IMG/VR virus record: IMGVR_UViG_3300017788_003308 | Location: 1 to 42,499 of that record | DNA length: 42,499 nt | From: a virus | Reading direction: 5' to 3' (one strand) | Shown: piece after piece, positions 1,960-42,499 of the stretch | How the letters are laid out: each line of letters begins with the position of its first letter | Numbering within the stretch: the stretch's first letter is position 1 | Translations under genes and position numbers: made by a program | Notes under the pieces: model-generated | Seen by the model: the letters and a program-made list of their open reading frames with translations, nothing else | The model's database searches: none | Told to the model about the DNA's origin: nothing

Positions 1960-1982
1960 ATATATTGAGTGTAATTAATATT

Positions 1983-17442: not shown

Positions 17443-17468
17443 ATTTATTAGGTTTTCAATTTTATTAA

Positions 17469-17483
17469 TATATAATATTAAAT
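17469..17483 (+). promoter_or_regulatory. TATATAAT element before the DegT-fold gene
   Basis: TATATAAT at 17469-17476 lies 7 nt before the ATG at 17484, in a 41-bp gap after the previous gene. No -35 hexamer or Shine-Dalgarno is evident. The element starts a new plus-strand gene set. Confidence 0.5.
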
Positions 17484-22716: not shown

Positions 22717-22745
22717 TTGCCAAAAGTATAAAAACTTCTTATACT
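22717..22745 (+). promoter_or_regulatory. sigma70-type promoter of the RecA/UvsX-like gene
   Basis: TTGCCA at 22717-22722, a 17-bp spacer and TATACT at 22740-22745. The ATG at 22756 is 10 nt after the -10, so the leader would be at most a few nt. There is no Shine-Dalgarno. Confidence 0.65.
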
Positions 22746-22746
22746 T
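22724..22746. promoter_or_regulatory. inverted repeat overlapping the -10 box (operator candidate)
   Basis: Perfect 8-bp arms AAGTATAA (22724-22731) and TTATACTT (22739-22746) flank a 7-bp centre. The right arm covers the -10 hexamer, so a protein bound here would block transcription of the recombinase gene. The same 8-7-8 geometry, with different sequence, occurs at 39164. Confidence 0.45.
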
Positions 22747-22755
22747 AATAAAATT

Positions 22756-23904
22756 ATGGGAAGAAAACCAAAAGAAGAAAATCCTGCGATGGAAACCTCT
22801 GGTCCATCAGCTAAATCAAGGTTAATTTCTTTTTTAAAAGAAAATAAAGAAGATCATTATAACTTTGAAGAAGAAATTTATTATAAAGTTTCAACTGGTA
22901 GTTTAAATTTAGATATTGCTACAGGAGGTGGACTAACCCCTGGATTGCATAGATTCTTGGGAATGAATGAAGGAGGAAAAACCTCAGAAGCATTAGAAGT
23001 GGTTAAAAATTTTCTTAAGTCTATTAAAGACTCAAGAGCCTTGCTTTTTAAAGCAGAGGGGAGATTGAGTAAAGAAATACAAGAAAGATCTGGAGTAAAA
23101 TTCGTTACAAATCCAGAGAATTGGGAGGACGGAACATGTTTTGTATTTGAATCAAATATTTTTGAAACTGTTTCTGAACTTATGAAAGATCTTGTTCAAA
23201 ATAATGATGAAAATAAAAGATATATTTTTGTTTTAGATTCTGTCGATGGTTTAATGACTAAAAGCGATAGCTTAAAAAGTTTATCTGAGGCAACAAAAGT
23301 GGCCGGTGGAGCAGTGATATCTTCTATGTTAATGAAAAAAATTTCTCTTGCCCTTTCTAAAAGAGGGCATATGGCCATATTTATTAGCCAAGTCAGATCA
23401 GACATTAAGTTAGATCCTTATGCTGCAAATAAAGAAATAAGACAAACTTCGGCCACAGGTGGAAATGCGCTCCTACATTTTGCAAATTGGATTCTTGAAT
23501 TTGAGCCTCGTTATAATAAAGACCTTATTCTTGAAAAACCAAATGAAAAATATGATTCTATTAAAAATAAAATTATTGGACATAATGTAAAAATTATTAT
23601 AAAAAAATCTACAAATGAATCCACAAATTCAAAAGTCCAATATCCAATTAAATATGGTAAAAAAGAAGGCTCTTCAATTTGGAAAGAATATGAAATTATA
23701 GACCAAATTCTTTCTTGGGAATTTGCTACAGCTAAAGGCGCTTGGGTCGCTTTCTCTGACGAAATTATAGAAGAACTTAAAAAATCTAATTTAGAAGTCA
23801 AGAAGCAACATCAAGGCATTGATAATTTAAGACTATATTTAGAAGAAAACCCGAAAATTGTTGATTATTTTTATAATAAATTTATAAAAACTCTTGCTTC
23901 ATGA
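22756..23904 (+). CDS. RecA/UvsX-like recombinase
   Basis: A 382-residue RecA-fold ATPase, about the length of T4 UvsX. VSTGSLNLDIATGGGLTPGL precedes the Walker A motif GMNEGGKT at 69-76; the Walker B strand is RYIFVLDSVDGL, and IFISQVRSDI followed by TSATGGNALLHFANWIL matches the DNA-binding loop region of RecA/UvsX. It should catalyse strand exchange in recombination-dependent replication and repair. Its stop overlaps the nuclease gene that follows by 4 nt. Confidence 0.88.
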   Translation: MGRKPKEENPAMETSGPSAKSRLISFLKENKEDHYNFEEEIYYKVSTGSLNLDIATGGGLTPGLHRFLGMNEGGKTSEALEVVKNFLKSIKDSRALLFKAEGRLSKEIQERSGVKFVTNPENWEDGTCFVFESNIFETVSELMKDLVQNNDENKRYIFVLDSVDGLMTKSDSLKSLSEATKVAGGAVISSMLMKKISLALSKRGHMAIFISQVRSDIKLDPYAANKEIRQTSATGGNALLHFANWILEFEPRYNKDLILEKPNEKYDSIKNKIIGHNVKIIIKKSTNESTNSKVQYPIKYGKKEGSSIWKEYEIIDQILSWEFATAKGAWVAFSDEIIEELKKSNLEVKKQHQGIDNLRLYLEENPKIVDYFYNKFIKTLAS

Positions 23905-24320
23905 GACTATTAAATATTAACGGAAAACTCGTTAATAAGAATGTCAAAAGATACTCAATAGATTGGCAAGGAAAGAGCCGTAGCAAGCTACAATTTAAAT
24001 TTAAACAATTTTTTTATCCTTATTGGAAAAATCATATTGTTTATGAAGAGTTTCCTGTGTATGGAACGATGCTTAAAGTTGATATATTAAATGCGACAAA
24101 AAAGATAGCAATTGAGGTACAGGGCAATCAACATGAATCCTTTAATGAATTTTTTCATGATCATTCTAGACTAAAATATCTTCAAAGCATAAAAAGAGAT
24201 GTCAAAAAAGAAAAATGGTTAGACATGAATGGATTTAAATTTTTAGAATTGTATGAAAATGATTTAAAAAATTTATCGCCCCAATATATAGAAGAAAAAA
24301 CTGGAATTCTAATTATTTAA
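23901..24320 (+). CDS. PD-(D/E)XK nuclease-like protein
   Basis: A 139-residue protein. LKVDILNATKKIAIEVQGNQH has the D-x(n)-ExQ arrangement of a Vsr/PD-(D/E)XK active site, followed by HDHSRLKYLQSI and GFKFLELYEND. The ending (LxLxxND) is common in Vsr-like and homing-type endonucleases. It overlaps the recombinase gene by 4 nt, which suggests a role in recombination or repair. Confidence 0.68.
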   Translation: MRLLNINGKLVNKNVKRYSIDWQGKSRSKLQFKFKQFFYPYWKNHIVYEEFPVYGTMLKVDILNATKKIAIEVQGNQHESFNEFFHDHSRLKYLQSIKRDVKKEKWLDMNGFKFLELYENDLKNLSPQYIEEKTGILII

Positions 24321-24335
24321 GTGTAAAATTATTTG

Positions 24336-24602
24336 GTGACAAATAAAAAGAAACCATTTAAAATACCAGATTCTTTACTAAAGCAAATTGACGAATGTAG
24401 TTTTGGAGGATATGTTTTATTTAATTTTTCAAACAAAGGAGAACCTCAAGTTTTCACCAAGTTTGATAATCAGATAAATGCCATGGCTATTTTATATTAT
24501 ATTAATACATGGAGCCAAAGCGTAGACCAATTAAATCTTGAAGCGACAACAAATTTAATATCCAAAATAGAAGACGAAGAAGACGAAGAAGACAAAGATT
24601 GA
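24336..24602 (+). CDS. small hypothetical acidic-tailed protein
   Basis: The product is about 88 residues. The start is either GTG at 24336 or the adjacent TTG at 24333; GTG is preferred. FKIPDSLLKQIDECSFGGYVLFNF is followed by a helix and a strongly acidic tail (IEDEEDEEDKD), which recalls phage ssDNA-mimicking or protein-binding tails. No family is recognised. It precedes the helicase gene. Confidence 0.55.
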   Translation: MTNKKKPFKIPDSLLKQIDECSFGGYVLFNFSNKGEPQVFTKFDNQINAMAILYYINTWSQSVDQLNLEATTNLISKIEDEEDEEDKD

Positions 24603-24612
24603 TTTATCTTTC

Positions 24613-24641
24613 TTGACTTTTAATTTTTAATTTAGTATCAT
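24613..24641 (+). promoter_or_regulatory. sigma70-type promoter of dnaB
   Basis: TTGACT at 24613-24618, a 17-bp spacer and TATCAT at 24636-24641. Only 6 nt separate the -10 from the ATG at 24648, so transcription should begin at or beside the start codon. No Shine-Dalgarno is present. Confidence 0.7.
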
Positions 24642-24647
24642 ATATAT

Positions 24648-26132
24648 ATGATATACTCCTTGCAAGTGGAAAGACACGCTTTAAGTGGTTTATTAAAATA
24701 TCAAGAGCTTTTCCCAGATATAGATATATTTTTGACGGAAAAAGATTTTTATAATGATGTTCATTCTACGATATATAGTGTTTTTAAAAATATTAAATAT
24801 AAAGGAGAAAACGCAGATAAAATCTTGCTAGCAGAGAAGATTAAAAATTTAGGAATATCATTCAAAGACGAGATAAACATATTTGATTACATTGATAACT
24901 TAAGTTTTTCACAGATCACAGAACAAGCTACTGTTGAAGCATGCAAAGAACTAATTAAATTAAGGATCCGAAGAGAGATAATTCAAACAACGGATAAATT
25001 AAAAGATTATATTAATAAAAACCCAGATGATTCTGTAGACCAAATTATAGGTCAAATAGATCAAATCTACAACAAGAAAATCTCATCATATTCAGAAAAT
25101 GATTCTCCAATTAACATATTTGAAGAGGTGGAAGATTTAATTGAAGAAATTGGAAACGCCCCAAAAGAAGATACAGGATTAATTACTCCTTATCAAGAAT
25201 TTAACAGAATGTATGGAGGTTTAAAAAACGGAAATATTTATGCAATAGCAAGCCGTCCAGGTCAGGGAAAATCCACCTGGCTAAATGATATTTGTTTTAA
25301 AACCTCTATCAACCCAAAAAATAAAACTAAAACATTAATTCTAGATACAGAAATGCAAACAATTGATATTCAATTGAGAATGGTTGCATCGTTGACAGAT
25401 GTCCCCGTTTGGTATTTGGAAACCGGAAATTGGAGAAAAAATGAAGAGATGACAAAAAAAGTAAGAGCAGCTTGGGCGAAAGTAAAAACTTATGAATATT
25501 TTCATTACCATGTTGGAAATAAAAATATAGATCAAGTGTGCTCTATGATTAGAAGATGGTATTTATCTAAAGTCGGAAGAGGAAACCAGGCTATGATCGC
25601 TTATGATTATATTAAATTAACTGGTGAAAAAGTTGGCCAAAATTGGGCAGAGCATCAGGCGATTGGAGAAAAAATTGATAAATTAAAAAGAATCTCAGAA
25701 GAGATTAAATGTCCAATTATTACCGCCATGCAATTAAACAGAACCGGAGAGAGTTTTAACAGAAACTCTAATAATATAGTGGATGATAGTTCAGTCATAT
25801 CTCTTTCTGATAGGCTTCAATGGTTTGCTTCGTTCGTGGCAATCTTCAGAAGGAAAACTCTTGATGAAATTACCTTAGACGGCCAAGCTTTTGGCACGCA
25901 TAAATTGATACCAACTAAAACTAGATTTCAAGGCAAAGACGCAGCAGGACATCAAGATATAGTTAGAAGACTTGACTCATCAGGCAAAGAAACATGGGCT
26001 CAAAATTATTTAAATTATCAAATAACAAATTTTAATATTGAAGAGCGAGGTTCTTTGAGAGACGTAGCCGAAAGACAAAGAGAGCAATATGAACTAAATG
26101 ATTCTAATAGAAATGATGGAGAGTTATTATGA
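24648..26132 (+). CDS. dnaB: DnaB-family replicative helicase
   Basis: A 494-residue protein of normal length. The N-terminal helical domain (VERHALSGLLKYQELF) is followed by a linker, then GGLKNGNIYAIASRPGQGKST with Walker A at about 202-210, ILDTEMQTIDIQLRMVAS, the Walker B strand MIAYDYIKL and ITAMQLNR. This is the ring helicase that unwinds the fork. It overlaps thyX by 4 nt and the primase follows, so helicase and primase are probably co-expressed. Confidence 0.93.
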   Translation: MIYSLQVERHALSGLLKYQELFPDIDIFLTEKDFYNDVHSTIYSVFKNIKYKGENADKILLAEKIKNLGISFKDEINIFDYIDNLSFSQITEQATVEACKELIKLRIRREIIQTTDKLKDYINKNPDDSVDQIIGQIDQIYNKKISSYSENDSPINIFEEVEDLIEEIGNAPKEDTGLITPYQEFNRMYGGLKNGNIYAIASRPGQGKSTWLNDICFKTSINPKNKTKTLILDTEMQTIDIQLRMVASLTDVPVWYLETGNWRKNEEMTKKVRAAWAKVKTYEYFHYHVGNKNIDQVCSMIRRWYLSKVGRGNQAMIAYDYIKLTGEKVGQNWAEHQAIGEKIDKLKRISEEIKCPIITAMQLNRTGESFNRNSNNIVDDSSVISLSDRLQWFASFVAIFRRKTLDEITLDGQAFGTHKLIPTKTRFQGKDAAGHQDIVRRLDSSGKETWAQNYLNYQITNFNIEERGSLRDVAERQREQYELNDSNRNDGELL

Positions 26133-26785
26133 ACGTTGAATTAATGTCTATTACAAAACCAGAAATTAAAGACATAAAAAAAGCAGAAGATTTAGTAGCT
26201 TATTGCGCTAGAGTAAGTAATCCTTCTAATCAATTAAATTTAGATACTGCGCCTAAATTATTAAAATTTTTAATAAACCATAAACATTGGTCACCATTCG
26301 AGATGGTCGATATGTGCGTAGAGATTAAAACTAGTAGAGCTATCGCAACTCAAATCTTAAGGCATAGATCATTTTCATTTCAAGAGTTTAGCCAAAGATA
26401 TAGCAACGCTACAGAGCACGAAGATATAGAATTAAGACTACAAGGCAATAAAAATAGACAGGTTGGAGAAAATTTAATACCCATTACTCATCCAGCTTAT
26501 GAAGAGATAAATCATTTAATAGCCGAATCAATCTCTATATCTCAACATTGCTACGAGACAATGATCGACAATGGCATAGCAAAAGAAGTCGCAAGAATGG
26601 TATTGCCATTGAATACTCAAACAACACTATACATGAAAGGCACCCTGAGAAGCTGGATTCATTATATCCAATTAAGAACAGAACAAAATACTCAAAAAGA
26701 ACATCGACAAATTGCTGAAAAATGTAAAAAAATATTTGTTAAAGAATTTCCAATAATTAGCGAGGCATTAGAATGGACCAAATAA
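26129..26785 (+). CDS. thyX: flavin-dependent thymidylate synthase ThyX
   Basis: The 218-residue protein contains the ThyX motif RHRxxSxxxxSxRY as RHRSFSFQEFSQRY, residues 78-91, and a late LRSWIHYIQLRTEQNTQKEHR block. ThyX makes dTMP from dUMP using FAD, methylene-tetrahydrofolate and NADPH, and is common in aquatic phages. Its ATG is 6 nt after a GGAGA Shine-Dalgarno inside the helicase gene. The stop lies within the start of the primase gene. Confidence 0.95.
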   Translation: MNVELMSITKPEIKDIKKAEDLVAYCARVSNPSNQLNLDTAPKLLKFLINHKHWSPFEMVDMCVEIKTSRAIATQILRHRSFSFQEFSQRYSNATEHEDIELRLQGNKNRQVGENLIPITHPAYEEINHLIAESISISQHCYETMIDNGIAKEVARMVLPLNTQTTLYMKGTLRSWIHYIQLRTEQNTQKEHRQIAEKCKKIFVKEFPIISEALEWTK

Positions 26786-27693
26786 ATATTTATCAAATCT
26801 TAACAGATCTAGGCTATAAATTAAAAGATTACGGCAAAGAATATAGAGCTAAACCTTTGTATAGAGATAGCGACAACGATACAGTTTTAAAAATCTATAA
26901 GGATTCCGGCCACTGGTTTGATTTTAAAGAGAATATAAGCGGAGATTTTAGCGCATTAGTTGGCATGACTTTAAAATTAGAGAGCCCAGAAAAAGCTAAA
27001 GAGTGGCTTAAAGATAAAAATTTTAATTTTTCTAGTCATCAAGAACGAACAAAACCATTATTAAGATCAATAAAAAAATTTGATTTAGATCTCCTAAAAA
27101 ATCTAGAGACAGATGATCAAACTTATTGGAATAAAAGAGGAATTACAAATGAAACTCTTAAAGAATTTAAGGGAGGAGTAGTTAAAGCCGGAAAAATGAA
27201 AAATAGATATGTATTTCCTATATTTAATATTGACAATAATATAAATGGATTTTCTGGTAGAGACACGACTAATCTTTCTAAGATAAGGTGGAAACATATA
27301 GGAGAAAAAAACGATTTTTTATACCCGCTTTTTTTAAATGAAAAATATATTTTAGATTCTAAACAAGTATTTATTATAGAGAGCATAGGCGACATGCTTT
27401 CCCTTTGGCAGGCAGGTATAAGAAATACTATCGTTCTATTTGGTGTTAATATGAATTTAAAAATTCTAAACTATCTTCTAAAAATAGACGTAAATAAAAT
27501 ATATATATCATTAAACAATGACTTTTTAAATAAGGGAGAAGGATATGGATGCGGCAACGTGTCTTCTCGAAAAATATATAATAAATTAACAAGATACTTT
27601 GACCATAAACAACTAAAGATTAGTTTGCCGATAAAAAAAGATTTTGGAGAAATGAACGCACAGGAAATTTTACAATGGAAAAACAATCTTTAA
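26773..27693 (+). CDS. DNA primase with Toprim domain
   Basis: A 306-residue protein. Its N-terminus (YRAKPLYRDSDNDTVLKIYKDSGHWFDF) resembles the zinc-binding domain of phage primases but lacks the Cys ligands. The core has WNKRGITNETLKEF, NRYVFPIFN, GFSGRDT, the Toprim Glu in FIIESIGDMLSLW and a second acidic motif ISLNNDFLN, where the first Asp of the usual DxD is Asn. It is T4 gp61-like in size. A GAGG Shine-Dalgarno lies 7 nt before the ATG, inside thyX. Confidence 0.82.
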   Translation: MDQINIYQILTDLGYKLKDYGKEYRAKPLYRDSDNDTVLKIYKDSGHWFDFKENISGDFSALVGMTLKLESPEKAKEWLKDKNFNFSSHQERTKPLLRSIKKFDLDLLKNLETDDQTYWNKRGITNETLKEFKGGVVKAGKMKNRYVFPIFNIDNNINGFSGRDTTNLSKIRWKHIGEKNDFLYPLFLNEKYILDSKQVFIIESIGDMLSLWQAGIRNTIVLFGVNMNLKILNYLLKIDVNKIYISLNNDFLNKGEGYGCGNVSSRKIYNKLTRYFDHKQLKISLPIKKDFGEMNAQEILQWKNNL

Positions 27694-28619
27694 AAGTTTT
27701 ATCTGCTTCCAGAATTAAAACTCTCGAAACTTGCTCTTGGGTCTATTGGAATAACTATCATAGCAAGATTCCACAGACCCAAAATGATGGCGCCCTTAGA
27801 GGCACGATTTGCCATACGATCTTTGAATTACTTTTAAACCCAAGACACAAACATAATTATAAAAAAATTATAAAAAAGAATTCTATTCGGGGTAGTAAAT
27901 CTATAGTAAGACTTATTAAAAAATTAAAGACCAAAGTAGGTCTAAGTGAATCAAATTTTGAAATATTAGACGAAATGATTATGGTTGGTCTAAAACATGA
28001 CTTTTTTGGAGAAGGCGGTACAATAATCAAGCCAGAGTACCCATTCGAAATAAAGAATGATAAACCTAAATATCATATTAAGGGCTTTATTGATAAGCCT
28101 ATTAAAAAGAAAAAAGAAATGCATATAATTGATTACAAGAGCTCCAAATATAAATTTAGAGGTGATGACTTTGAAGCTAATATTCAAGCCATGATGTATA
28201 GCCTTGCGAGCTTAAAACTATGGCCTAAGCTAAAACCTATTGTTAAATTTTTATTTCTAAGATTTCCAAAACAACCAATACAAGAACTATCATTTGACGA
28301 AAATGAAATCAAGGGATTTGAGCATTATCTTGAGCATATTAACGATTATATTAATAAATTTGATGAAAAATCTGCAGAAGCTAATTTCGCCGCAGACAAT
28401 GAAAAAAATAGATGGATGTGTCAAACTGGAGGATGGAAATGTCCATATAAAGACCCTTATGAATACTATGTAAAATTAAATAAAGATAATGAGATTATAG
28501 AATCTAATTTAGATGGAAATTTTAAAAATACCGAAGGATTTAATATTGAAAAAAGGAAATATTCTGGGTGCCCAAAATTTAATGTTAAAAATAAAAAAAT
28601 AGATGATTTTTTAGATTGA
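27675..28619 (+). CDS. Cas4/RecB-like PD-(D/E)XK exonuclease with four conserved-type Cys
   Basis: A 314-residue protein. SASRIKTLETCSWVYWNNY and GTICHTIFELLL give the N-terminal RecB motifs. KGFIDKPI followed by MHIIDYKSS carries the metal-binding Asp and the DxK. Cys20 together with Cys249, Cys256 and Cys299 (WMCQTGGWKC and SGCPKF) has the one-plus-three layout that holds an iron-sulfur cluster in Cas4, AddB and Dna2. It likely trims DNA ends during recombination or replication. Confidence 0.82.
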   Translation: MEKQSLKVLSASRIKTLETCSWVYWNNYHSKIPQTQNDGALRGTICHTIFELLLNPRHKHNYKKIIKKNSIRGSKSIVRLIKKLKTKVGLSESNFEILDEMIMVGLKHDFFGEGGTIIKPEYPFEIKNDKPKYHIKGFIDKPIKKKKEMHIIDYKSSKYKFRGDDFEANIQAMMYSLASLKLWPKLKPIVKFLFLRFPKQPIQELSFDENEIKGFEHYLEHINDYINKFDEKSAEANFAADNEKNRWMCQTGGWKCPYKDPYEYYVKLNKDNEIIESNLDGNFKNTEGFNIEKRKYSGCPKFNVKNKKIDDFLD

Positions 28620-28624
28620 GAATT

Positions 28625-28858
28625 ATGATTTACAATTATCAATTAAATCTTTTATCAGAAGACGAATTTATTTTTTTAGTATTTTGCCTTTCAAAAGAAT
28701 GGGAAAAAACATCACGGACAGAATTTAATATTAAATATATTAATTTATTTAAAGAACAAGCTGTGATATATATCGTTAATAAATACAAAAATATGCTAAA
28801 AGATGAGTATTTATTATTACCAGAAAAGATTTTAGACAAAATGTTCTTGACAAAGTAG
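28625..28858 (+). CDS. small hypothetical protein
   Basis: The frame opens at a TTG (28616) that overlaps the previous stop, but the ATG at 28625 (MIYNYQLNLLSEDE) is preferred, giving 77 residues. It is helical, with FIFLVFCLSKEW and KEQAVIYIVNKYKNML. No family is recognised. It comes immediately before the polymerase promoter. Confidence 0.5.
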   Translation: MIYNYQLNLLSEDEFIFLVFCLSKEWEKTSRTEFNIKYINLFKEQAVIYIVNKYKNMLKDEYLLLPEKILDKMFLTK

Positions 28859-28875
28859 TTTAATTATTTTATACT
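28847..28875 (+). promoter_or_regulatory. sigma70-type promoter of the split DNA polymerase operon
   Basis: TTGACA at 28847-28852, a 17-bp spacer and TATACT at 28870-28875. The ATG at 28885 is 9 nt after the -10. There is no Shine-Dalgarno, so the transcript is leaderless or nearly so. The -35 overlaps the 3' end of the preceding gene. Confidence 0.75.
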
Positions 28876-28884
28876 GTTACACAG

Positions 28885-29631
28885 ATGATACCTTTATTTA
28901 AATCGCATTATTCTCTTGGCAGATCAATCCTTACGCTAGAAGACAAAGATCAATCCGATGATTATCCAGACTCGATTATCCAAATAGCAAAAGAGCATAA
29001 ATTAAAAGAAATATCTATTGTAGAAGATAATATGTCGTCTTTTTTAGAGGCATATACTAATACAAAAAATAATAATATTAAATTAAATTATGGATTAAGA
29101 ATTTCTATCACCGAATCAATAACCGAAAAGAACGAAGAATCAATACAAAAAACATCAAAAATAATACTATTTGTTAAGAACAAAAATGGCTATGAAAAAT
29201 TAACTAAACTATTTAGTATTGCTGCAAAATCTGGTTTTTATTATGGTCCTAGACTTGATTACAAGATTTTAAAAGAGAATTGGAACGAGGATTTAATTTT
29301 AGCTATACCATTTTATGATTCATTTATATTCAATAATACTTTAAAAAATATGATTTGCATACCTCAATTTGAATTTACAAAACCAATTATATTTATTGAA
29401 GAGAATGATTTACCGTTCGAGGATATTATTAAAAATAAAGTAAAAAAATATGCAGAAGAAAATTCTTTAGAAGTCTATAGAGTCAAAAGCATATACTACA
29501 ATAAAAAGAAAGACTTCAAATCTTACTTAACATTTAGATGCATTAATAATAGAAGCATATTAAACAAACCAGAACTAGAACATATGTCTAGCAATGATTT
29601 TTCTTTTGAAAGCTATATGAGGACAAGATAA
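28885..29631 (+). CDS. PHP domain of DNA polymerase III alpha, as a separate protein
   Basis: The 248-residue protein is colinear with the N-terminal PHP domain of DnaE: PLFKSHYSLGRSILTL, SIIQIAKEHKLKEISIVEDNM, LNYGLRISI, GYEKLTKLFSIA and SGFYYGPRLDYKIL are recognisable. It stops where DnaE passes from PHP into polymerase (SSNDFSFESYMRTR). The N-terminal HxH metal ligands of active PHP domains are not evident, so it is probably structural. The polymerase core is a separate gene at 30467. Confidence 0.82.
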   Translation: MIPLFKSHYSLGRSILTLEDKDQSDDYPDSIIQIAKEHKLKEISIVEDNMSSFLEAYTNTKNNNIKLNYGLRISITESITEKNEESIQKTSKIILFVKNKNGYEKLTKLFSIAAKSGFYYGPRLDYKILKENWNEDLILAIPFYDSFIFNNTLKNMICIPQFEFTKPIIFIEENDLPFEDIIKNKVKKYAEENSLEVYRVKSIYYNKKKDFKSYLTFRCINNRSILNKPELEHMSSNDFSFESYMRTR

Positions 29632-30269
29632 TGGACGAACACTTATTAAGATATGATAAGAAAAAGACTTTAGTTTTTATTGATTGCGAGACTTTTAATT
29701 TATGTTTAAATTTTTGCCATAATTTACCTTGGCAAATAGCAATGATTAAAGTAATAGGAGATAAAAAAGTTGATGAGAAAAATTTTTATCTTAAATGGCA
29801 AACAGATTTAAAAATTAGTCAAGACGCAGCAAGAATAACAAGATATGATCATAAAAAAGTTCAGAAAGAAGGTCACGATCCAAAAGAAATATTTCCTACT
29901 ATAAAAGATTGGCTTGATCATGCTGATTATATCGTAGGGCATAATGTCCTAGGGTTTGATATTTATCTTATAAAAGAATATTATAGATTCATGGGCTGGA
30001 ACTGGAAACATCTTATTCATAAATTTATAGACACAAATGCCGTCGCTAGAGGATTAAAATATAATATGCCTTACAAGCCTTTAGATAATTTAACGGAATA
30101 TCAGTACAAGATTTACCATACAAGAAAGAAAAATATAAAAAGCTCTTTAACTACTCTAGGCAAAGAAAATGGTATAGATCATGATTACGAAAAATTGCAT
30201 GACGCTATTAATGATCTTGACTTAAATTTAAAAGTATGGAATAAATTGAAGTGGCAAATAGAGGTATAA
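29631..30269 (+). CDS. DnaQ-like 3'-5' exonuclease (proofreading subunit candidate)
   Basis: A 212-residue DEDDh-type exonuclease. TLVFIDCETFN gives the Asp-Glu pair, IVGHNVLGFDIYLIKEY the ExoII Asp, and HDAINDLDLNLKVW the ExoIII His and Asp. It lies between the two halves of the polymerase, with a Shine-Dalgarno-like GAGGA 7 nt before its ATG, and most likely proofreads for that polymerase. Confidence 0.88.
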   Translation: MDEHLLRYDKKKTLVFIDCETFNLCLNFCHNLPWQIAMIKVIGDKKVDEKNFYLKWQTDLKISQDAARITRYDHKKVQKEGHDPKEIFPTIKDWLDHADYIVGHNVLGFDIYLIKEYYRFMGWNWKHLIHKFIDTNAVARGLKYNMPYKPLDNLTEYQYKIYHTRKKNIKSSLTTLGKENGIDHDYEKLHDAINDLDLNLKVWNKLKWQIEV

Positions 30270-30270
30270 T

Positions 30271-30486
30271 ATGGCTTCGCTAGATGATATATATGATATG
30301 ATTCAAAAATTAGATGATTCTAATATTGAATATCTCCTGATCACTATTCAAAAAGGAAAAAAAAATGGAAAGGCCGACGTTTTCTATTCTTTAAAAGACA
30401 GAAATTCAATGAAAATTTTAACTGAAGGATTAAAAGAATTTACAAAAGAAGTAGATAGGATAGACGATGAAGGCAAATTTGATTAA
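30271..30486 (+). CDS. small protein between exonuclease and polymerase genes
   Basis: A 71-residue acidic, helical protein (MASLDDIYDMIQKLDDSNIEYLLITI). The ATG is 1 nt after the exonuclease stop and has a good Shine-Dalgarno (GAGG, 6 nt away). The last 20 nt overlap the polymerase gene. Unrecognised; conserved position could point to a link between exonuclease and polymerase. Confidence 0.6.
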   Translation: MASLDDIYDMIQKLDDSNIEYLLITIQKGKKNGKADVFYSLKDRNSMKILTEGLKEFTKEVDRIDDEGKFD

Positions 30487-33073
30487 TTATTCAGGAGACA
30501 AATCTTTCTTTTCTAAGTTCGAAGATATAGACTTAGGGCTTCACGGCGTAAGATTGCCAGAATTTAATATTGATAGTTCAGCAAAAAGACATTTAAATCT
30601 AAGTGAAGATGTATCAAATTATGAGTTTTTAAGAGCTTTATCTTTAAATGGATTTAAAGAACTAAAAATAGATAAGAATCAACCAGAATATAAAAAATAT
30701 ACAGATCGAGCAAAGCACGAACTAGAAACTTTAAAAGAGTTAGGATTTATAGATTATATATTACTGGTTTGGGATGTTATTAATTTCTGCAAAACCAACA
30801 ATATCCCAGTTGGGCTAGGTAGAGGTTCTGCGGCCGGATCATTAATATTATATTTAATTGGAGTCACAAGGATAGACCCAGTTAAATACAACCTTTATTT
30901 TGAAAGATTTATATCTAAGATTAGAGCTAAAAAGCAAGTTATTAATAAGATAACATACCTGGATGGCAGTTTAATGTGCGACGTAGATCTTGATATATGT
31001 TATTATAATAGACACAAAGTTCTTGAATATCTTGAGAATAAATTCAAAGGTAAAACCAGTAAAATATTAACTTTAAATACTCTTAGCGGAAAACTTCTTA
31101 TAAAAGAATGCGGTAAAATTGTTGCAGAAAAATCAGAAGAAGAAATGACAACAATCTCATCATTAATCCCTAAGATATTTGGTCAAGTAAAAGACATTAC
31201 GTCTGCGTATGAAGAAATACCCAAATTCAAAGAATGGTGTGATGATAATAAAGAAGCATACGAAATAGCTTTAAAGTTAAGAGATTTAATTAAAAATAAG
31301 GGAGTCCATCCTTCTGGAGTATTGTTGTCTTATGATGACCTAGAAAAAGTTTGCCCAACAGAACTCTCTTCAGATAAAGAGGCGGTCTCCAGCTTTGATA
31401 TGAATTGGGTCTCTTTATTTAATATTAAATTAGATATCTTAGGCTTAAGAAGTGTCTCTGTTGTTGACGATGTGTGCAAAAGAATAAACATAAAAATATC
31501 AGACATTGATCTTAATGATCCATCTATATATAGAGCCCTACAAGACCTAAGAAGTCCTCATGGTTTGTTTCAAATAGAAGCAGATACAAATTTTAAAGTC
31601 TGCCAAAAGGTAAAGCCTAAAAATTTAGAAGAGTTAAGCGGAGTATTAGCTCTTGCAAGACCTGGCGCTTTACAGTTTGTTGATAAATATGCAGCACATA
31701 CAAATCTTCAACAATCAGAGAGTATACACCCATTCTTTGATGATATTCTAAAACAAACTGGCGGTGTAGCGCTTTATCAAGAGCAGCTTATGCAAATGGC
31801 AAATAAGATTGGTTTTACTTTGGATGAAGCAGAAATTTTAAGAAGGATCGTAGGCAAAAAGAAGACTGACGAAATTAAAACTTGGCAGAAAAAAATTGAA
31901 ACAAAAGTAAAAGAAAATAAATTGCCAAAAGAAGTCGGAGATATTCTATGGAAAATTTTAGAAGATTCAGCAAATTATTCTTTCAATAAATCTCATTCGC
32001 TTGCCTATGCAGCTTTAGCGGCAGTTACAATTTATCTTAAATTTAATTATCCACAAGAATTTTTCTTATCTTTATTAAAAATGAGCAGAAATGAGCCAGA
32101 TCCAATTGGCGAAATATCTAAAATTCAGAAAGAGATGCATGAGTTTAATATTGAGCTTTTGCCTCCTCATATTATTAAATCCGACATGGATTTTTCAATT
32201 CAGCAAAACGACATTAGGTTCGGCCTACTTTCAATTAAAGGTATTAGCGATAAATCAATAGAAAAATTGAATAATTTTAGAAACAAATACTCTAATAAAT
32301 TTGAAATATTTCAAGCTGCAGAAGAATCCGATCTAAACATCGGAGCATTATCAGCGTTGATTCAAGCGGGAGCATTGAGCGGGTTTAAACAATCAAGAAG
32401 TAAAATAGTTTTAGAAGCCCAACTATGGAATATTCTTACTATTAAAGAAAAAAAGTATGCGATATCTTTCTCAGAAAAATTTGATTACGATTTAATTAAA
32501 ATAATTAAATATTTAAATACTTTTACGGATGAAAAGAATAACAAGATAATAAAAGACCAAAGGCTCAAGACAATTAAAATAAAATATGAACCATATTTGC
32601 AAATATATAATCAGAATAATAAAAGCGAAAGTTTTGCAAATTGGTATTATGAAAAAAAGCTATTAGGATATACATATAATAAATCATTAAAAGAAATATT
32701 TCTAGAAAAGAGAGCAAATTTAATTCATATTTCAGAAATAAGAGATGTTCCGTTAAACCATAAAATAGCATTTGTCGGTCAAATTGATGATATATTTTCC
32801 GGCGTATCTAAAAGCGAAAAGAAAACTAGATATGTTAGGCTTAAGGTTTCAGATGAAACAGGATATATAAACGCCTTAATATTCAATGATAATATAGAAA
32901 ATAATAAATTATTAAATAATAGAAACTTTGAAGAAGGTAATATTGTAATAGTTAAAGGCCTAAAAAAAGATGATTGTATTTTTGGAGACCTAGTGGCTAT
33001 TCAAGATCAAGAAATATATATGAAATTAAATGATCTAAAGAAAATAATTGACAAAACAGCGAATAATGATTAG
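30467..33073 (+). CDS. dnaE: DNA polymerase III alpha subunit, polymerase core without PHP domain
   Basis: An 868-residue C-family polymerase lacking the N-terminal PHP domain. VGLGRGSAAGSLILYLIGVT (about 115-134) is the palm signature; CDVDLDIC (171-178) supplies catalytic D174 and D176; FNIKLDILGLR supplies the third Asp. The fingers (GVALYQEQLMQMA, LRRIVGKKK, SFNKSHSLAYAALA) and a C-terminal OB domain (IAFVGQIDDIFSG...TRYVRLKVSDETG) follow. AGGA 6 nt before the ATG serves as Shine-Dalgarno. It should work with the PHP protein at 28885 and the exonuclease. Confidence 0.93.
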   Translation: MKANLINYSGDKSFFSKFEDIDLGLHGVRLPEFNIDSSAKRHLNLSEDVSNYEFLRALSLNGFKELKIDKNQPEYKKYTDRAKHELETLKELGFIDYILLVWDVINFCKTNNIPVGLGRGSAAGSLILYLIGVTRIDPVKYNLYFERFISKIRAKKQVINKITYLDGSLMCDVDLDICYYNRHKVLEYLENKFKGKTSKILTLNTLSGKLLIKECGKIVAEKSEEEMTTISSLIPKIFGQVKDITSAYEEIPKFKEWCDDNKEAYEIALKLRDLIKNKGVHPSGVLLSYDDLEKVCPTELSSDKEAVSSFDMNWVSLFNIKLDILGLRSVSVVDDVCKRINIKISDIDLNDPSIYRALQDLRSPHGLFQIEADTNFKVCQKVKPKNLEELSGVLALARPGALQFVDKYAAHTNLQQSESIHPFFDDILKQTGGVALYQEQLMQMANKIGFTLDEAEILRRIVGKKKTDEIKTWQKKIETKVKENKLPKEVGDILWKILEDSANYSFNKSHSLAYAALAAVTIYLKFNYPQEFFLSLLKMSRNEPDPIGEISKIQKEMHEFNIELLPPHIIKSDMDFSIQQNDIRFGLLSIKGISDKSIEKLNNFRNKYSNKFEIFQAAEESDLNIGALSALIQAGALSGFKQSRSKIVLEAQLWNILTIKEKKYAISFSEKFDYDLIKIIKYLNTFTDEKNNKIIKDQRLKTIKIKYEPYLQIYNQNNKSESFANWYYEKKLLGYTYNKSLKEIFLEKRANLIHISEIRDVPLNHKIAFVGQIDDIFSGVSKSEKKTRYVRLKVSDETGYINALIFNDNIENNKLLNNRNFEEGNIVIVKGLKKDDCIFGDLVAIQDQEIYMKLNDLKKIIDKTANND

Positions 33074-33076
33074 TAT
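33048..33076 (+). promoter_or_regulatory. sigma70-type promoter of the 33085 gene
   Basis: TTGACA at 33048-33053, a 17-bp spacer and TAGTAT at 33071-33076, 8 nt before the ATG at 33085. No Shine-Dalgarno is present. The -35 lies inside the end of the polymerase gene. Confidence 0.65.
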
Positions 33077-33084
33077 TATCATAT

Positions 33085-33618
33085 ATGATATCATTTTATA
33101 AACCTAATAGTAAAAATAGCGGTACAGCTTGTAGTTTTAGCGTAAATACTAAGGATGAATCTATCTGGTGTTCGCTTATAAAACAAAGTTCTTGGAATGA
33201 AAAAACTAAGACAGGTTCATTTATAGACAACAAAGATAATCCGCAAAAAAGCGCCAAGGTTAAATTTTCTTTGGTAGAAGTGGCCGGTCTTCTAGAATCT
33301 TTAGAAAAAAATGTAGAGTTTTCAGCTTATCATTCTTCAGATAAACAAATTACTAAAATTAAACTCTTACCTTATGTAAAAGAAGAAAAGCAAGTAGGCT
33401 TCTCTTTCTCTGTAAATAAAGAGAATAAAGAGAACTCTGAAAATAAGCAGTCCTTTTTGATAGGGTTTTATTTTAATGAAGCAAGGCTTCTTAAGGAATT
33501 TTTATTATATACTTTGCAAGCTACCTTTGACTCTCAAAGAGTCGAGCTAATAAAAAAAATAAAAAATAATGTTAAAGAAAAATCTTCTTCTGATCAAGCA
33601 GAAGGCGAAATTTGGTGA
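33085..33618 (+). CDS. putative ssDNA-binding protein (PC4/whirly-like)
   Basis: A 177-residue protein with two similar beta-beta-beta-helix blocks: ACSFSVNTKDESIWCSLIKQ with KVKFSLVEVAGLLESL, then GFSFSVNKEN with SFLIGFYFNEARLLKEFLLYTL. The layout suggests a PC4/whirly-type nucleic-acid-binding fold, and its place after the polymerase with its own strong promoter suits a replication ssDNA-binding protein. The C-terminus (SSSDQAEGEIW) is acidic and ends in an aromatic residue, as in SSBs. Inference, moderate at best. Confidence 0.5.
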   Translation: MISFYKPNSKNSGTACSFSVNTKDESIWCSLIKQSSWNEKTKTGSFIDNKDNPQKSAKVKFSLVEVAGLLESLEKNVEFSAYHSSDKQITKIKLLPYVKEEKQVGFSFSVNKENKENSENKQSFLIGFYFNEARLLKEFLLYTLQATFDSQRVELIKKIKNNVKEKSSSDQAEGEIW

Positions 33619-35528
33619 TGCAAAAAAAGAAGATATTAATTCAAACAGACTTTTGCTTAGCCAAAACTGGTTTCGGAAGAAACGCTAAAGCAATTCTTAA
33701 ATATTTATATAGTTTAGAAAAATATGATATTGTCCAATATTGTTGTGGAATAACATGGTCAAATCCAGAATTACAAAAAGTTCCATGGAAGTCTTTCGGC
33801 ACATTACCAGATACTCAAGAAGAAATTAATTCAATTAATAGAGATCCAAATGTGGCAAGACAAGCTAGCTATGGGGGTTATAATTTAGATAAAATTATTT
33901 TACAAGAAAAACCAGATGTATATTTTGCAATACAAGATATTTGGGGAGTAGATTTTGCTATAGAAAAGCCTTGGTTTGAAAAGATAACGTCTGTAATTTG
34001 GACGACCCTTGATTCTTTACCCATATTAGATAGCGCTGTCGCTGCAGCCCCAAAAGTTAAAAATTATTGGATTTGGAGTGATTTCGCTACTAAAGCTTTA
34101 AATTCGATGGGTTTTAATCATGTAAAAACTGTTCGTGGAGCAATAGAAGACGAGTTATTTTTCCCATTATCTTCTTCCAAAAAAATGGAAATAAGAAAAA
34201 AATATAATATTCCACAAGACGCATTTATCGTTGGATTTGTTTTTAGAAATCAATTAAGAAAAAGTGTCCCTAATTTATTAGAGGGATATGCTTTGTGGAA
34301 AGCTAGAAATCCAGAAGTAAAAAATACATTTTTACTTCTGCATACTTCTTGGGAAGAAGGATGGAATATACCAAAATTAGCTCAAGAATATGGGATTGAT
34401 TTGAATGAAATTCTAACAACATATATCTGTAAAAACTGTAAAGAATTTTTTATTTCTAGGTTTTGTGGGCCAAATCCAGACTGCCCATCCTGCGGCGCTA
34501 AAAAAAGTTGCGCTACAACAAGCGTAGGTTATGGAGTAACAGAAAATCAATTAAATGAAGTATATAATATAATGGATGTTTACTGTCACCCTTTTACAAG
34601 CGGTGGGCAAGAGATTCCAATACAAGAAGCAAAATTAGCAGGCTTGATAACTTTAGTTACAAATTATAGTTGTGGAGAAGATTTATGCGCCCCAGAAGCA
34701 GAAAGCCTACCATTAGAATGGTCCGAGTACAGAGAACACGGCACAGAATTCAGAAAAGCTTCGACTTTGCCAGGGTCAATCGCTAAACAACTTCATAAAG
34801 TATGGAAAATGCCAAAAGACAAACGAGAAAAACTGGGGCTAATTGCGAGGGACTGGACAATAGAAAATTTTTCAATTAAAAATATCGGTAAAAAAATAAC
34901 AGATCTTATTGACGCTTCGCCAAAGGTCAATTGGGATAATATAGATCTTAGTTCAGATAACGAAAAAAATCCGGATTGCATTATACCTAACATAAATGAT
35001 GATAAAGATTGGTTAATATTTATGTATCATAATATTCTTAAGATGAAGAATGTAGACGAAAATGACAATGGTTATAAATATTGGATGCATGAATTGAACC
35101 GAGGAGCAAAAAGAGAAGATATCGAAAACTACTTTCGAAAAGTAGCTGCACAAGAAAATGCAAATAATAAAAAAATAGATTTTAGTAGCCTTTTAAGTTC
35201 AAATCCAAAAAGAATTTTAATTGTTATACCCGAGAGCGCAGGCGATGTTTTTATGGTTTCATCGCTTTTTGAATCAATAAAAAATATTTATCCAGAGCAT
35301 GATCTATATGTTGCAACAAAAAATCAATATTTGGATATATTAATAAATAATCCATATATTCATAAAGTTCTACCTTTTACGCCAGAGATGGATCAATTAT
35401 TACTTATGGAGGGGGCAGGAACACATCCTGGTTTTTTTGATATAGCATTTATGCCCCACGCAGGCACTCAAAGATTTTTAAATTATCTGCATAACGCTAA
35501 AGATAAAATTGAATTTGATATAAAATAA
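33618..35528 (+). CDS. composite protein: GT4-like transferase with zinc-ribbon insert, DUF4214-like domain and N-terminal half of a GT9 domain
   Basis: The ATG at 33618 overlaps the previous TGA. Four parts are visible in 636 residues. A GT-B/GT4 transferase (about 1-430; LAKTGFGRNAKAIL, VGFVFRNQLRKSVPNLLEGYALWK, YCHPFTSGGQEIPIQEAKLAG). Inside it a zinc ribbon with C271, C274, C289 and C292. A DUF4214-like segment at about 461-513 (LIFMYHNILKMK...GYKYWMHELNRG). Last, a GT9 N-terminal half (RILIVIPESAGDVFMVSSLF...DLYVAT) that ends abruptly after FNYLH-type residues at two TAA codons. The missing C-terminal half is the next gene. It has no close counterpart among the other transferases here. 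Confidence 0.75.
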   Translation: MQKKKILIQTDFCLAKTGFGRNAKAILKYLYSLEKYDIVQYCCGITWSNPELQKVPWKSFGTLPDTQEEINSINRDPNVARQASYGGYNLDKIILQEKPDVYFAIQDIWGVDFAIEKPWFEKITSVIWTTLDSLPILDSAVAAAPKVKNYWIWSDFATKALNSMGFNHVKTVRGAIEDELFFPLSSSKKMEIRKKYNIPQDAFIVGFVFRNQLRKSVPNLLEGYALWKARNPEVKNTFLLLHTSWEEGWNIPKLAQEYGIDLNEILTTYICKNCKEFFISRFCGPNPDCPSCGAKKSCATTSVGYGVTENQLNEVYNIMDVYCHPFTSGGQEIPIQEAKLAGLITLVTNYSCGEDLCAPEAESLPLEWSEYREHGTEFRKASTLPGSIAKQLHKVWKMPKDKREKLGLIARDWTIENFSIKNIGKKITDLIDASPKVNWDNIDLSSDNEKNPDCIIPNINDDKDWLIFMYHNILKMKNVDENDNGYKYWMHELNRGAKREDIENYFRKVAAQENANNKKIDFSSLLSSNPKRILIVIPESAGDVFMVSSLFESIKNIYPEHDLYVATKNQYLDILINNPYIHKVLPFTPEMDQLLLMEGAGTHPGFFDIAFMPHAGTQRFLNYLHNAKDKIEFDIK

Positions 35529-35562
35529 TAATATAATTTAGCATTATGGAAAAGATTAGGAC

Positions 35563-36714
35563 ATGCATATATTAGAACAATATGCTCTTGGTTGTGGCGT
35601 TAAAATTAAAAGGCCTTACATATACAGCAAGTATTATCCTTTGCCTTTTGAAAAATACATAATATTACATGCACCTAATAAATTTCAATCAAGAACTTAT
35701 GATTATTGGTCAGACGTTTTAGATTTTTTAAAACCATATTTAATTGAAAATGATATAAAGATTGTCCAAATAGGAGATAAAACAGAGACGCTATTTACCC
35801 GAGATTGTTACGTTACAAATGGCCAAACAGATTTTAATCAATTAAGCTATTTAATTAAACATGCGAAATTATTATTAGGCATAGATAGTTTTCCTATACA
35901 TTTAGCGGGATATCATAATATCAATATTGTTGGTTTATATTCTAATATGTACAAAGAACATTCTATGCCATATTGGGGCGATAAAGATAAGCAAGCCTTA
36001 ATCGAAAGTCATCGGAATGGCATGAAGCCTTCTTATACCCAGAATGAAATTATAAAAACTATAAATTTAATAAATCCAGAAGATATAGCTAATAAAGTTT
36101 TGCATCTTTTAGACATTAGGTCTAATATAAAACTAAAAACTCTTTTCGTGGGAAGACATTACAATAATCAAATCGTGGAGATGATACCTTCTCATCCGGT
36201 TAATATTACTAGTTTAAATATTCCTCATATAAATGTTAGGATGGATAAAGAATTTAATTTAGAAGTATTACAGCATCAATTAAATATTTCAAAAGTTGCA
36301 ATTATAACTAATAAAGCTTTACCAATAGATCTCTTGAAATTCTACAAAGAAAACATCGTTAGAATTACGTTCTTTATATCATCTAGTTTTGATCATACCT
36401 TTTTTGAAGAATTTGTAAAATTAGGAATACAATTTGATTTAGCCTCAGAAGAGGACGATGTCCATTTAAATAAATTAAAAATCAAATATATGGAATTTGG
36501 TAATATTATTAAAATAAGTCATGAAGATTTATCAAATGAAATAAAAAGTCGTAAAAATCTAAAGTTTAAATCAAATAAAAAAACTTTTTATAATAATAAA
36601 GTATATCCCACGCATTATCACGCTCTAAAAGATAAACCTTACGACGCAGATGATTTTGAATTTAGTAATTCCATTAGCGAAGAAGACATAAATTTTATAA
36701 GAATATTTGAATAA
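35563..36714 (+). CDS. C-terminal half of a GT9 domain plus an unknown domain
   Basis: The first ~190 of 383 residues are the C-terminal half of a GT9 enzyme: EKYIILHAPNKFQSRTYDYW, KIVQIGDKTETLF, and SYLIKHAKLLLGIDSFPIHLAGYHN with the His of GxDSxPxHLA intact. About 190 residues without a recognised family follow. The N-terminal GT9 half is the end of the previous gene. Reading the upstream frame through its stops gives ALWKRLGH, which joins smoothly to MHILEQYALGCGV here, so the two are either separate subunits or a frameshifted gene. Confidence 0.7.
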   Translation: MHILEQYALGCGVKIKRPYIYSKYYPLPFEKYIILHAPNKFQSRTYDYWSDVLDFLKPYLIENDIKIVQIGDKTETLFTRDCYVTNGQTDFNQLSYLIKHAKLLLGIDSFPIHLAGYHNINIVGLYSNMYKEHSMPYWGDKDKQALIESHRNGMKPSYTQNEIIKTINLINPEDIANKVLHLLDIRSNIKLKTLFVGRHYNNQIVEMIPSHPVNITSLNIPHINVRMDKEFNLEVLQHQLNISKVAIITNKALPIDLLKFYKENIVRITFFISSSFDHTFFEEFVKLGIQFDLASEEDDVHLNKLKIKYMEFGNIIKISHEDLSNEIKSRKNLKFKSNKKTFYNNKVYPTHYHALKDKPYDADDFEFSNSISEEDINFIRIFE

Positions 36715-36718
36715 TTTA

Positions 36719-36747
36719 TTGACAAATATATAAATATATTATATAAT
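36719..36747 (+). promoter_or_regulatory. perfect consensus sigma70 promoter of the 36754 gene
   Basis: TTGACA at 36719-36724, a 17-bp spacer and TATAAT at 36742-36747 match the consensus at all twelve positions. Six A residues separate the -10 from the ATG at 36754, which places the expected transcription start on or next to the A of ATG. Confidence 0.8.
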
Positions 36748-36753
36748 AAAAAA

Positions 36754-37554
36754 ATGGAAACTAATATATCAGAATCAATGGTTATTCAACCAAATATAAG
36801 ATACTATTCTGAAGATGAAGATATTCAAGGCGAATTATTTAATAAACCAAATGTCACTTTAAAAAAGAATAAATATGGGCTAATTGAAGACAAGAATATT
36901 AAATATATATTTAATAATGATGGCACTATAAATTGGAGAAAGATGGTAAAACAAGAGTATCTTGTAGCGAATCGTCAAAAAACACAAGAATCAGATGTTA
37001 CAAAATTAGAAGATAAAGATTTATTAATACTTCTGGGAGGAATAAAAGAATTAGCCCAAATCCGTGGCTACTCTAAAGTAGAATATAAAGTAGTTGCCGC
37101 ATCCGAAAACTATTTCGCCACAAGTTGTAGAATTACATGGCTTCCAAATTATGAAACAGACAATAGAGAAGTTATTTTTGAAGCCTTGGCAGACGCTTCG
37201 CACTTTAATACAAAAAGTTTTGCAAAATATTTCTTGGCTGCAATAGCAGAAAATAGAGCTTTTGTTAGATGCGTTAGGAATTTTTTAAAAATTAATATTG
37301 TATCCCAAGAAGAACTTGGAGATGTAAAACTATTAGAAGAATCAGGCCCAACAGAAAATCCAACTTCTCCATATTCTTTACTCGAAAAAGTCATGAAAGA
37401 TAAAAGCATATCTTTTGAACAGCTTAAAAATAAATTAATTAAAGAAAATTTTGATGGGGCAGAAAAAATAAATTTAATTACTGATATTCCAAAATTAAAA
37501 ATTTTTGAATTAGTAGAAAGGATAAAAAAAGTAAAAAATGAAAAAAATCTTTAA
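36754..37554 (+). CDS. conserved phage protein, possible recombination or annealing function
   Basis: A 266-residue protein. LLILLGGIKELAQIRGYSKVEYKVV, CRITWLPNYE, FEALADASHFNT and AAIAENRAFVRCVRNFLKINIVSQEELG make up the core, followed by a helical C-terminus. The pattern ADA...AxAENRAFVRxVRNFL recurs in phage proteins that sit near replication genes and reminds me of single-strand annealing proteins, but no diagnostic motif confirms this. The perfect promoter just upstream indicates strong early expression. Confidence 0.5.
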   Translation: METNISESMVIQPNIRYYSEDEDIQGELFNKPNVTLKKNKYGLIEDKNIKYIFNNDGTINWRKMVKQEYLVANRQKTQESDVTKLEDKDLLILLGGIKELAQIRGYSKVEYKVVAASENYFATSCRITWLPNYETDNREVIFEALADASHFNTKSFAKYFLAAIAENRAFVRCVRNFLKINIVSQEELGDVKLLEESGPTENPTSPYSLLEKVMKDKSISFEQLKNKLIKENFDGAEKINLITDIPKLKIFELVERIKKVKNEKNL

Positions 37555-39163: not shown

Positions 39164-39186
39164 TATTACACTTATAAGGTGTAATA
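39164..39186. promoter_or_regulatory. inverted repeat in the divergent tail-gene gap (operator candidate)
   Basis: Perfect 8-bp arms TATTACAC (39164-39171) and GTGTAATA (39179-39186) flank TTATAAG. The 47-bp gap separates the minus-strand 39159 gene and the plus-strand 39207 gene, so the site could control both. Reading toward the minus gene, TAATAT ends 6 nt before its ATG. The plus gene has AAGG and AAAGG runs that could serve as a Shine-Dalgarno. Confidence 0.45.
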
Positions 39187-41923: not shown

Positions 41924-42499
41924 AATAAAACTACATGGTAAACTTGGTGAAGATTTAGGAGAAAATTGGGAGTTAGCTGTTGATAGCGTCGCAGAAGCGA
42001 TGAGAGCAATAGAAGCCAATACAAAAAAATTTAAAAAATGGATTATAGATAGCAGAAAAGATAATTGCGTATATGTTACTTTAATAAATAATGAGATCGT
42101 TAGATACGAGAAAACTGATGAATTTTATATAACGAAATCAGATGTATTTGTATCTTTTAAAAATAAATTAAAGTCTATAGATATAATTCCTATTCCGGAA
42201 GGAGCTCAATATTATAGAGATTTTAGCAGATCTATAGGTAGCAGCGTCGGGGGAGGAAGTCGGTATACCACGCCAGTAAATACGAATAATAATTATAGTA
42301 CTTCTACTTACCAACAACAAGTGAACGCTGCAAATAAAGCAAGAGCTGATCAAGAAAGAGCAGCTGCCGCCGCAGCAAAGAGAGCTGCTGACGCAGCAGC
42401 AAAAAATAAAGGCAGCGGCGGAAGCAGCGGCGGAAGCAGCGGCGGAAGCAGCGGCGGAAGCAGCGGCGGAAGCAGCGGCGGAAGCAGCGGCGGAAGCAG
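41916..42499 (+). CDS. lambda gpI-like tail assembly protein with Ala/Lys and Gly/Ser extension (runs off window)
   Basis: The ATG overlaps the end of the preceding gene and the frame is open to the window's end (194 complete codons). VKIKLHGKLGEDLGENWELAVDSVAEAMRAIEA, then IIDSRKD and later VFVSF match the ubiquitin-like gpI (PF06805-type) domain. After about residue 95 comes SxGSSVGGGS, a Gln/Asn/Thr-rich stretch, an Ala-rich helix (AAAAAAKRAADAAAK) and a Gly-Gly-Ser-Ser repeat starting at residue 166. The gene order M-L-K-I is lambda's, and a gpJ homologue should follow outside the window. Confidence 0.82.
   Translation, partial: MVKIKLHGKLGEDLGENWELAVDSVAEAMRAIEANTKKFKKWIIDSRKDNCVYVTLINNEIVRYEKTDEFYITKSDVFVSFKNKLKSIDIIPIPEGAQYYRDFSRSIGSSVGGGSRYTTPVNTNNNYSTSTYQQQVNAANKARADQERAAAAAAKRAADAAAKNKGSGGSSGGSSGGSSGGSSGGSSGGSSGGS
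42417..42499 (+). repeat. 12-bp GC-rich tandem repeat encoding Gly-Gly-Ser-Ser
   Basis: GGCGGAAGCAGC is repeated in frame six times without a mismatch from 42417 to 42488, and an 11-base partial copy ends at the window edge, so the array continues. It lies in the gpI-like gene. Its perfect identity and high G+C contrast with the AT-rich surroundings, which suggests recent slippage expansion. It encodes a flexible linker. Confidence 0.95.

Follow-up and report, generated by a model that had tools for sequence, protein, structure and literature searches.

Leaderless phage mRNAs are already known. The cI transcript of phage lambda has been named as the first leaderless case (PMC3160421), most middle and late transcripts of the Thermus phage phiYS40 have been reported as leaderless (PMC3594737), and the AR9 paper describes phage transcripts as "often leaderless" (PMC5312081). 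In Deinococcus, a −10 box 6–7 bp before the open reading frame (ORF) accompanies leaderless mRNA (PMC12340547), and TA-led genes were described by Zheng et al. 2011 (PMC3160421). Leaderless translation is resistant to kasugamycin (PMC5230787). Here we analyzed a 42.5-kb fragment of an uncultured phage from a virus collection (IMG/VR record IMGVR_UViG_3300017788_003308, positions 1 to 42,499, 30% GC), referred to below, at its full length, as the window. A preliminary description had proposed that five of its genes, heading operons of the replication module, are transcribed as leaderless mRNAs from promoters placed almost at the start codon. Judging from promoter geometry in the window and its relatives, we consider it highly probable that this widespread lineage follows a genome-wide leaderless strategy, with leaders of 0–4 nucleotides (nt).

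Promoter-to-start distance and its conservation

The five promoters proved to be as described, with 17-bp spacers and −10 boxes ending 10, 6, 9, 8 and 6 nt before the ATG (Table 1). None of the five starts has a Shine-Dalgarno (SD) sequence, the free energy of pairing with the anti-SD being above 0 at each of them, whereas the operon-internal genes named in the same description do have one (−6.4 kcal/mol for genes 26129 and 26773, −6.0 for 29631, −7.1 for 30271 and −4.0 for 30467).

Sites were counted as promoters if they consisted of TTG with at most one mismatch to ACA, a spacing of 16–18 bp, and TA...T with at most one further mismatch. Under this rule gene 33085 (TAGTAT) drops out and a weak extra site at 10861 on the minus strand counts. 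Scanned on both strands, the window contained 17 matching sites, compared with about 10 expected after shuffling. Five of them lay 4–11 nt before one of the 55 starts, far above the 0.06 expected by chance (P ~7e-9). The scan was extended to a five-contig set made up of the window and four large relatives (172, 134, 132 and 78 kb), all relatives being fragments rather than complete genomes and all gene calls in this work coming from our own simple gene caller. Without use of gene calls, an ATG was found at an offset of 6 nt past 44 of the 238 sigma70-like sites of this set, against 3.9 expected (P 8e-31); further ATGs stood at 7 nt (15), 8 nt (9) and 9 nt (8). No overall ATG excess was observed at offsets 12–44 past the same sites, and GTG and TTG were flat at offsets 6–9. 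When the −35 or −10 hexamers were permuted, clusters near the ATG became far weaker or vanished. In these tests the −10 box stands about 6–8 nt before an AUG start, in promoters of sigma-70 type (TTGACA and TATAAT hexamers 16–18 bp apart).

The same scan of other phages placed few sites 4–11 nt before a start: 0/14 in T4, 1/27 in HTVC008M, 0/36 in Staphylococcus phage K, whose promoters peak near 30 nt from the start, and 2/9 in P-SSM2. P23-45 could not serve as a control for a consensus scan (57% GC, no matches), and phiYS40 was used instead. For this comparison we counted operon-leading genes with a −10 box 5–10 nt before the start and, as the control distance, 25–30 nt before it. The near and far shares were 17% versus 4% in phiYS40 and 30% versus 8% in the family of the window phage; in T4 they were 2% versus 23%. 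A sample of IMG/VR contigs (L129–L208), selected only for carrying a perfect TTGACA-17-TATAAT no more than 30 nt from an ATG, was bimodal for ORF-opening ATGs, with 15 at 6–8 nt, 26 at 21–30 nt and 7 at 12–20 nt. Most of these contigs had no detectable similarity to the window phage family.

Conservation was assessed in 80 DnaB relatives (78–92% identity), counting distinct upstream sequences only (40–56 per gene for most genes). The dnaB promoter was present in 56/56, always with a 17-nt spacer and 7–10 nt from the ATG, and an SD in 0/56. For gene 33085 the promoter was retained in all 40, again with a 17-nt spacer and at 6–10 nt (SD 1/40). The PHP-domain gene kept its promoter 6–10 nt before the ATG in 40/45 and recA 6–11 nt before it in 39/44, neither with any SD (0/45 and 0/44). 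The operon-internal controls behaved in the opposite way: no promoter and an SD in 52/54 for thyX, no promoter and an SD in 56/56 for primase. Other internal genes were less uniform, the SD being moderate in the exonuclease (25/46) and weak in the polymerase III (pol III) alpha gene (4/26).

The promoter also follows the start codon. Among 41 distinct orthologs of gene 36754 (66 relatives fetched), 13 different N-terminal lengths occur, yet the promoter stands 6–9 nt from the ATG in 36. In one PHP subclade the protein starts two codons earlier, and the promoter has shifted along with it so that 6 nt are kept. Since the promoter moves with the start codon, selection acts on the distance to the AUG and not on the DNA as such. 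A distant relative, with 50% identity in pol III, carries AAAGGAG at the PHP start, and a promoter is absent there.

Further gene classes, the GTGTAAT motif and accessory genes

In the relatives, the near-ATG promoter also heads genes for a DNA ligase, a UvdE-like endonuclease, an IMP dehydrogenase-like protein and a DUF932 protein. Many small genes share it, usually with a 16-bp spacer. Within the 45 nt before operon-leading genes, a second motif, GTGTAAT, was counted 50 times against 1.1 expected, at many genes across contigs L082–L108. It mostly lies 7–8 nt before the ATG, without an SD, and a few GTG starts remain in this class; at the tail tape-measure gene it belongs to the class at 16–35 nt. 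GTGTAAT is a candidate phage late promoter; the class is taken as probably late because the tape-measure gene and large ORFs are headed by it. Most other genes that it heads have no family match.

SD complementarity separates these classes. An SD was found in 0/60 starts with a sigma70-like promoter 5–11 nt from the ATG and in 0/52 with GTGTAA 6–12 nt from it, but in 11/20 (55%) with GTGTAA at 16–35 nt; background rates were 25% for internal genes and 5% for random ATGs. Because the last contrast falls within one promoter class, it further supports the view that near GTGTAAT sites make no leader.

Several large relatives encode two different sigma-70-like factors of about 200 and 228 amino acids (aa). 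From this we infer that they are candidates for reading the non-standard promoter classes. Phage-encoded initiation factor 3 (IF3) was looked for as an aid to leaderless translation and was not found. Judged by eye, the GGG/CCC anticodon stem typical of initiator tRNA is missing from the tRNA-Met(CAT) of two relatives. Relatives also carry a gene for transfer-messenger RNA (tmRNA; in L085 it matches Rfam RF00023 at E about 1e-45), whose tag peptide is conserved but odd: AKTAKYKGHxSARxSLVExxxSVA.

No DnaB relative was found in 84,980 GTDB genomes. For pol III a single 50% match was obtained in a Flavobacteriaceae metagenome bin, where the PHP gene has an SD; this is weak evidence on the host. 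The phage collection gave no megablast match to the window and only remote DnaB and pol III matches, and phiYS40 was absent among the listed tblastn matches of the window DnaB and pol III.

Three features of the window itself were recorded. Its pol III alpha is split (28885–33073), with the PHP domain, the 3'-5' exonuclease, a 71-aa ORF and the polymerase core as separate genes. Positions 1–950 have a GC content of 44–51% against 30% elsewhere; either the contig is chimeric at this end or ORF 213–908 was acquired by transfer. A tandem repeat of GGCGGAAGCAGC closes the record (42400–42499), and the assembly probably broke there.

Table 1. Promoter elements, genes and motifs in the window and in named relatives (coordinates are those of the window unless a relative is given).
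Feature	Position	Strand	Details
−35 box TTGCCA, recA/uvsX-like gene	22717..22722	+	from sequence
−10 box TATACT, recA/uvsX-like gene	22740..22745	+	17-bp spacer, 10 nt to ATG
RecA/UvsX-like recombinase, predicted near-leaderless	22756..23904	+	PHROG 97 E 2e-33, Pfam RecA E 2e-11; no SD
−35 box TTGACT, dnaB	24613..24618	+	from sequence
−10 box TATCAT, dnaB	24636..24641	+	17-bp spacer, 6 nt to ATG
DnaB replicative helicase	24648..26132	+	Pfam DnaB domain from residue 3; start set by conserved N-terminus
thyX, operon-internal control with SD	26129..26785	+	no promoter in relatives
DNA primase, operon-internal control with SD	26773..27693	+	SD in relatives
−35 box TTGACA, PHP-domain gene	28847..28852	+	from sequence
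−10 box TATACT, PHP-domain gene	28870..28875	+	17-bp spacer, 9 nt to ATG
PHP domain of split pol III alpha, predicted near-leaderless	28885..29631	+	Pfam PHP E 2e-14
−35 box TTGACA, gene 33085	33048..33053	+	from sequence
−10 box TAGTAT, gene 33085	33071..33076	+	17-bp spacer, 8 nt to ATG
Conserved 177-aa protein, predicted leaderless	33085..33618	+	no family match
−35 box TTGACA, gene 36754	36719..36724	+	from sequence
−10 box TATAAT, gene 36754	36742..36747	+	17-bp spacer, 6 nt to ATG
Conserved 266-aa protein, predicted leaderless	36754..37554	+	no family match
GTGTAA(T), second-class (late-type) motif	1969..1974	+	8 nt before ATG 1983
GTGTAA(T), second-class motif	39166..39171	−	9 nt before ATG 39156(−)
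Sigma-70-like gene, relative G003	17395–18078	−	
Sigma-70-like gene, relative G003	89104–89703	+	
Sigma-70-like gene, relative G001	141968–142651	+	
Sigma-70-like gene, relative G001	78837–79436	−	
tmRNA gene, L085	10335–10725	−	
tmRNA gene, L095	17160–17548	+	
tmRNA gene, L102	14725–15112	−	
tmRNA gene, L105	1514–1899	+	

Predicted transcription starts and competing explanations

RNA polymerase usually starts transcription about 7 nt past the −10 box, so the mRNAs described here should begin with the AUG or 1–4 nt before it. In the mechanism we propose, promoters would be placed so that the polymerase starts at the start codon or within about 4 nt of it. Host RNA polymerase would read the TTGACA/TATAAT class, and host polymerase together with phage-encoded sigma factors would probably read the TTGAC-16-TATATT and GTGTAAT classes. 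The resulting mRNAs would carry a 5'-terminal or near-terminal AUG, at which ribosomes would begin the first cistron in leaderless fashion; for the remaining cistrons of an operon, initiation would depend on an SD or on translational coupling. A minority of operons, such as that of the tape-measure gene, would retain a leader of 16–35 nt with an SD. The original proposal of leaderless mRNAs is strongly supported by the 6-nt peak, the conservation and the co-movement with the start codon, and its transcript ends stand as predictions from promoter position.

Several points weigh against this reading. The absence of an SD is partly forced by geometry, as a −10 box 6–10 nt from the ATG fills the SD position, which also applies to the 0/60 and 0/52 counts above. 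The distance of 9–10 nt in most dnaB and recA relatives predicts a leader of 2–4 nt and suggests that "near-leaderless" is the better term there. In most of the relatives L002–L081, recA and the reading frame before it share 17 nt, and this upstream frame encloses TTGCNA-17-TAGAAT, 9 nt from the recA ATG. Because the promoter sits in the overlapping frame, its conservation at recA is ambiguous in most relatives and could be due to codon constraint. Read-through from upstream operons could supply leadered copies, and more than half of the operon-leading starts, as called by our simple gene caller, have no recognised signal. The habitual start site and the ability to translate leaderless mRNA would both depend on the host.

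Chance is the explanation with a practically negligible probability. At 30% GC, TATAAT-like hexamers are abundant, and even the shuffled window yields promoter-like sites, but the P values for the window and the five contigs, the weak clusters of permuted motifs, and the spacers and distances kept in dozens of relatives led us to reject it. An ordinary leader, created by true start codons lying further downstream, is very improbable. The preliminary description had named downstream starts as an outcome that would count against it, and no usable alternative start has an SD: an in-frame ATG is present at codon 12 of recA and at codon 9 of gene 36754, each a weak alternative, while in genes 28885 and 33085 the 40 codons after the start contain neither ATG nor GTG nor TTG. 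All alternatives in the other three genes lack an SD, the N-terminal domain of DnaB starts at residue 3 and its first residues are invariant, and orthologs keep the first codons. Downstream starts were rejected on these grounds.

More weight is due to the possibility, which we nevertheless regard as unlikely, that the promoters are real but that most translated copies are longer read-through transcripts, on which initiation is SD-independent without being leaderless, by way of AU-rich start regions free of structure, of protein S1 or of coupling. The genes all share one strand and are separated by short gaps, and many internal genes lack an SD in relatives too; besides pol III alpha, a PD-(D/E)XK gene has one in only 6/51. 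However, read-through gives no role to the constant spacing between promoter and AUG or to the way the promoter shifts with the start codon, and it does not account for leadered GTGTAAT operons having an SD where near ones do not. The leaderless starts were initially framed as a special device of replication operons, and the five sites of the window do head mainly replication and recombination genes. That framing turned out too narrow, and a replication-specific device is exceedingly improbable and was rejected: the near geometry is shared by the ligase, UvdE-like, IMP dehydrogenase-like, DUF932 and small genes, and the second motif heads other operons.

Tentatively, and with our judgement not far from balanced, the leaderless reading may extend further. 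Three or more promoter classes could supply leaderless mRNAs for most of the gene programme, from early to late; phage sigma factors would read two of these classes (TTGAC-16-TATATT and GTGTAAT), and SD leaders would be confined to internal cistrons and to a few operons. As the 6–8 nt arrangement is also present in many environmental phages unrelated to this lineage, leaderless initiation could be a common and overlooked phage strategy.

Comparison with known systems

What is new here is a lineage in which nearly all recognisable sigma70-type promoters lie near the ATG, with dozens of orthologs behind the pattern and a late-type motif in addition. The expectation that such starts would be unusual for a phage was only partly right, given lambda cI, the reports on phiYS40 and the fairly frequent near promoters in the IMG/VR sample. 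If the leaderless reading is true, these phages are an experiment of nature in which leaderless translation can be tested across whole genomes outside Thermus and the Actinobacteria, and they raise the question of whether they alter host ribosomes or initiation factors. As a practical rule, a promoter 6–8 nt upstream would mark the real start codon and the head of an operon in phage genomes from metagenomes, in which gene finders that rely on an SD may place starts wrongly. The two candidate sigma factors and the GTGTAAT motif would be testable parts of late transcription in uncultured phages.

The lambda cI transcript in question runs from PRM. Like the mRNAs predicted here, it is a phage mRNA that starts at the AUG and is translated without an SD; however, it concerns one gene of a temperate phage, compared with dozens of operons in a large phage genome. 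T4 late promoters are read with the gp55 sigma factor, and by analogy a phage sigma-like factor acting on a short late motif for structural genes is plausible for the GTGTAAT class. A T4-type late promoter as such (TATAAATA at −10, no −35, SD leader) does not describe this class: GTGTAAT replaces TATAAATA, and most copies are 7–8 nt from the ATG in a mostly leaderless geometry, unlike in T4.

Among the closest known systems is phiYS40, a large AT-rich phage whose leaderless transcription, like that predicted here, is genome-wide, with a positive −10 test and internal genes with an SD. In phiYS40, leaderless transcription was reported for middle and late genes, whereas in the window family replication genes and small genes, the latter probably early, have the arrangement too; the GTGTAAT motif is absent near phiYS40 starts. 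The host of phiYS40 is a thermophile in which leaderless genes abound. The "−10 motif adjacent to ORF" of Deinococcus-Thermus shows the same distance of 6–7 bp (~12 bp from the first T of the box), and there, too, genes without an SD stand beside genes with one. It differs in belonging to bacterial chromosomes; at many −10 boxes, the window family adds a near-consensus −35 box at a spacing of 16–17 bp.

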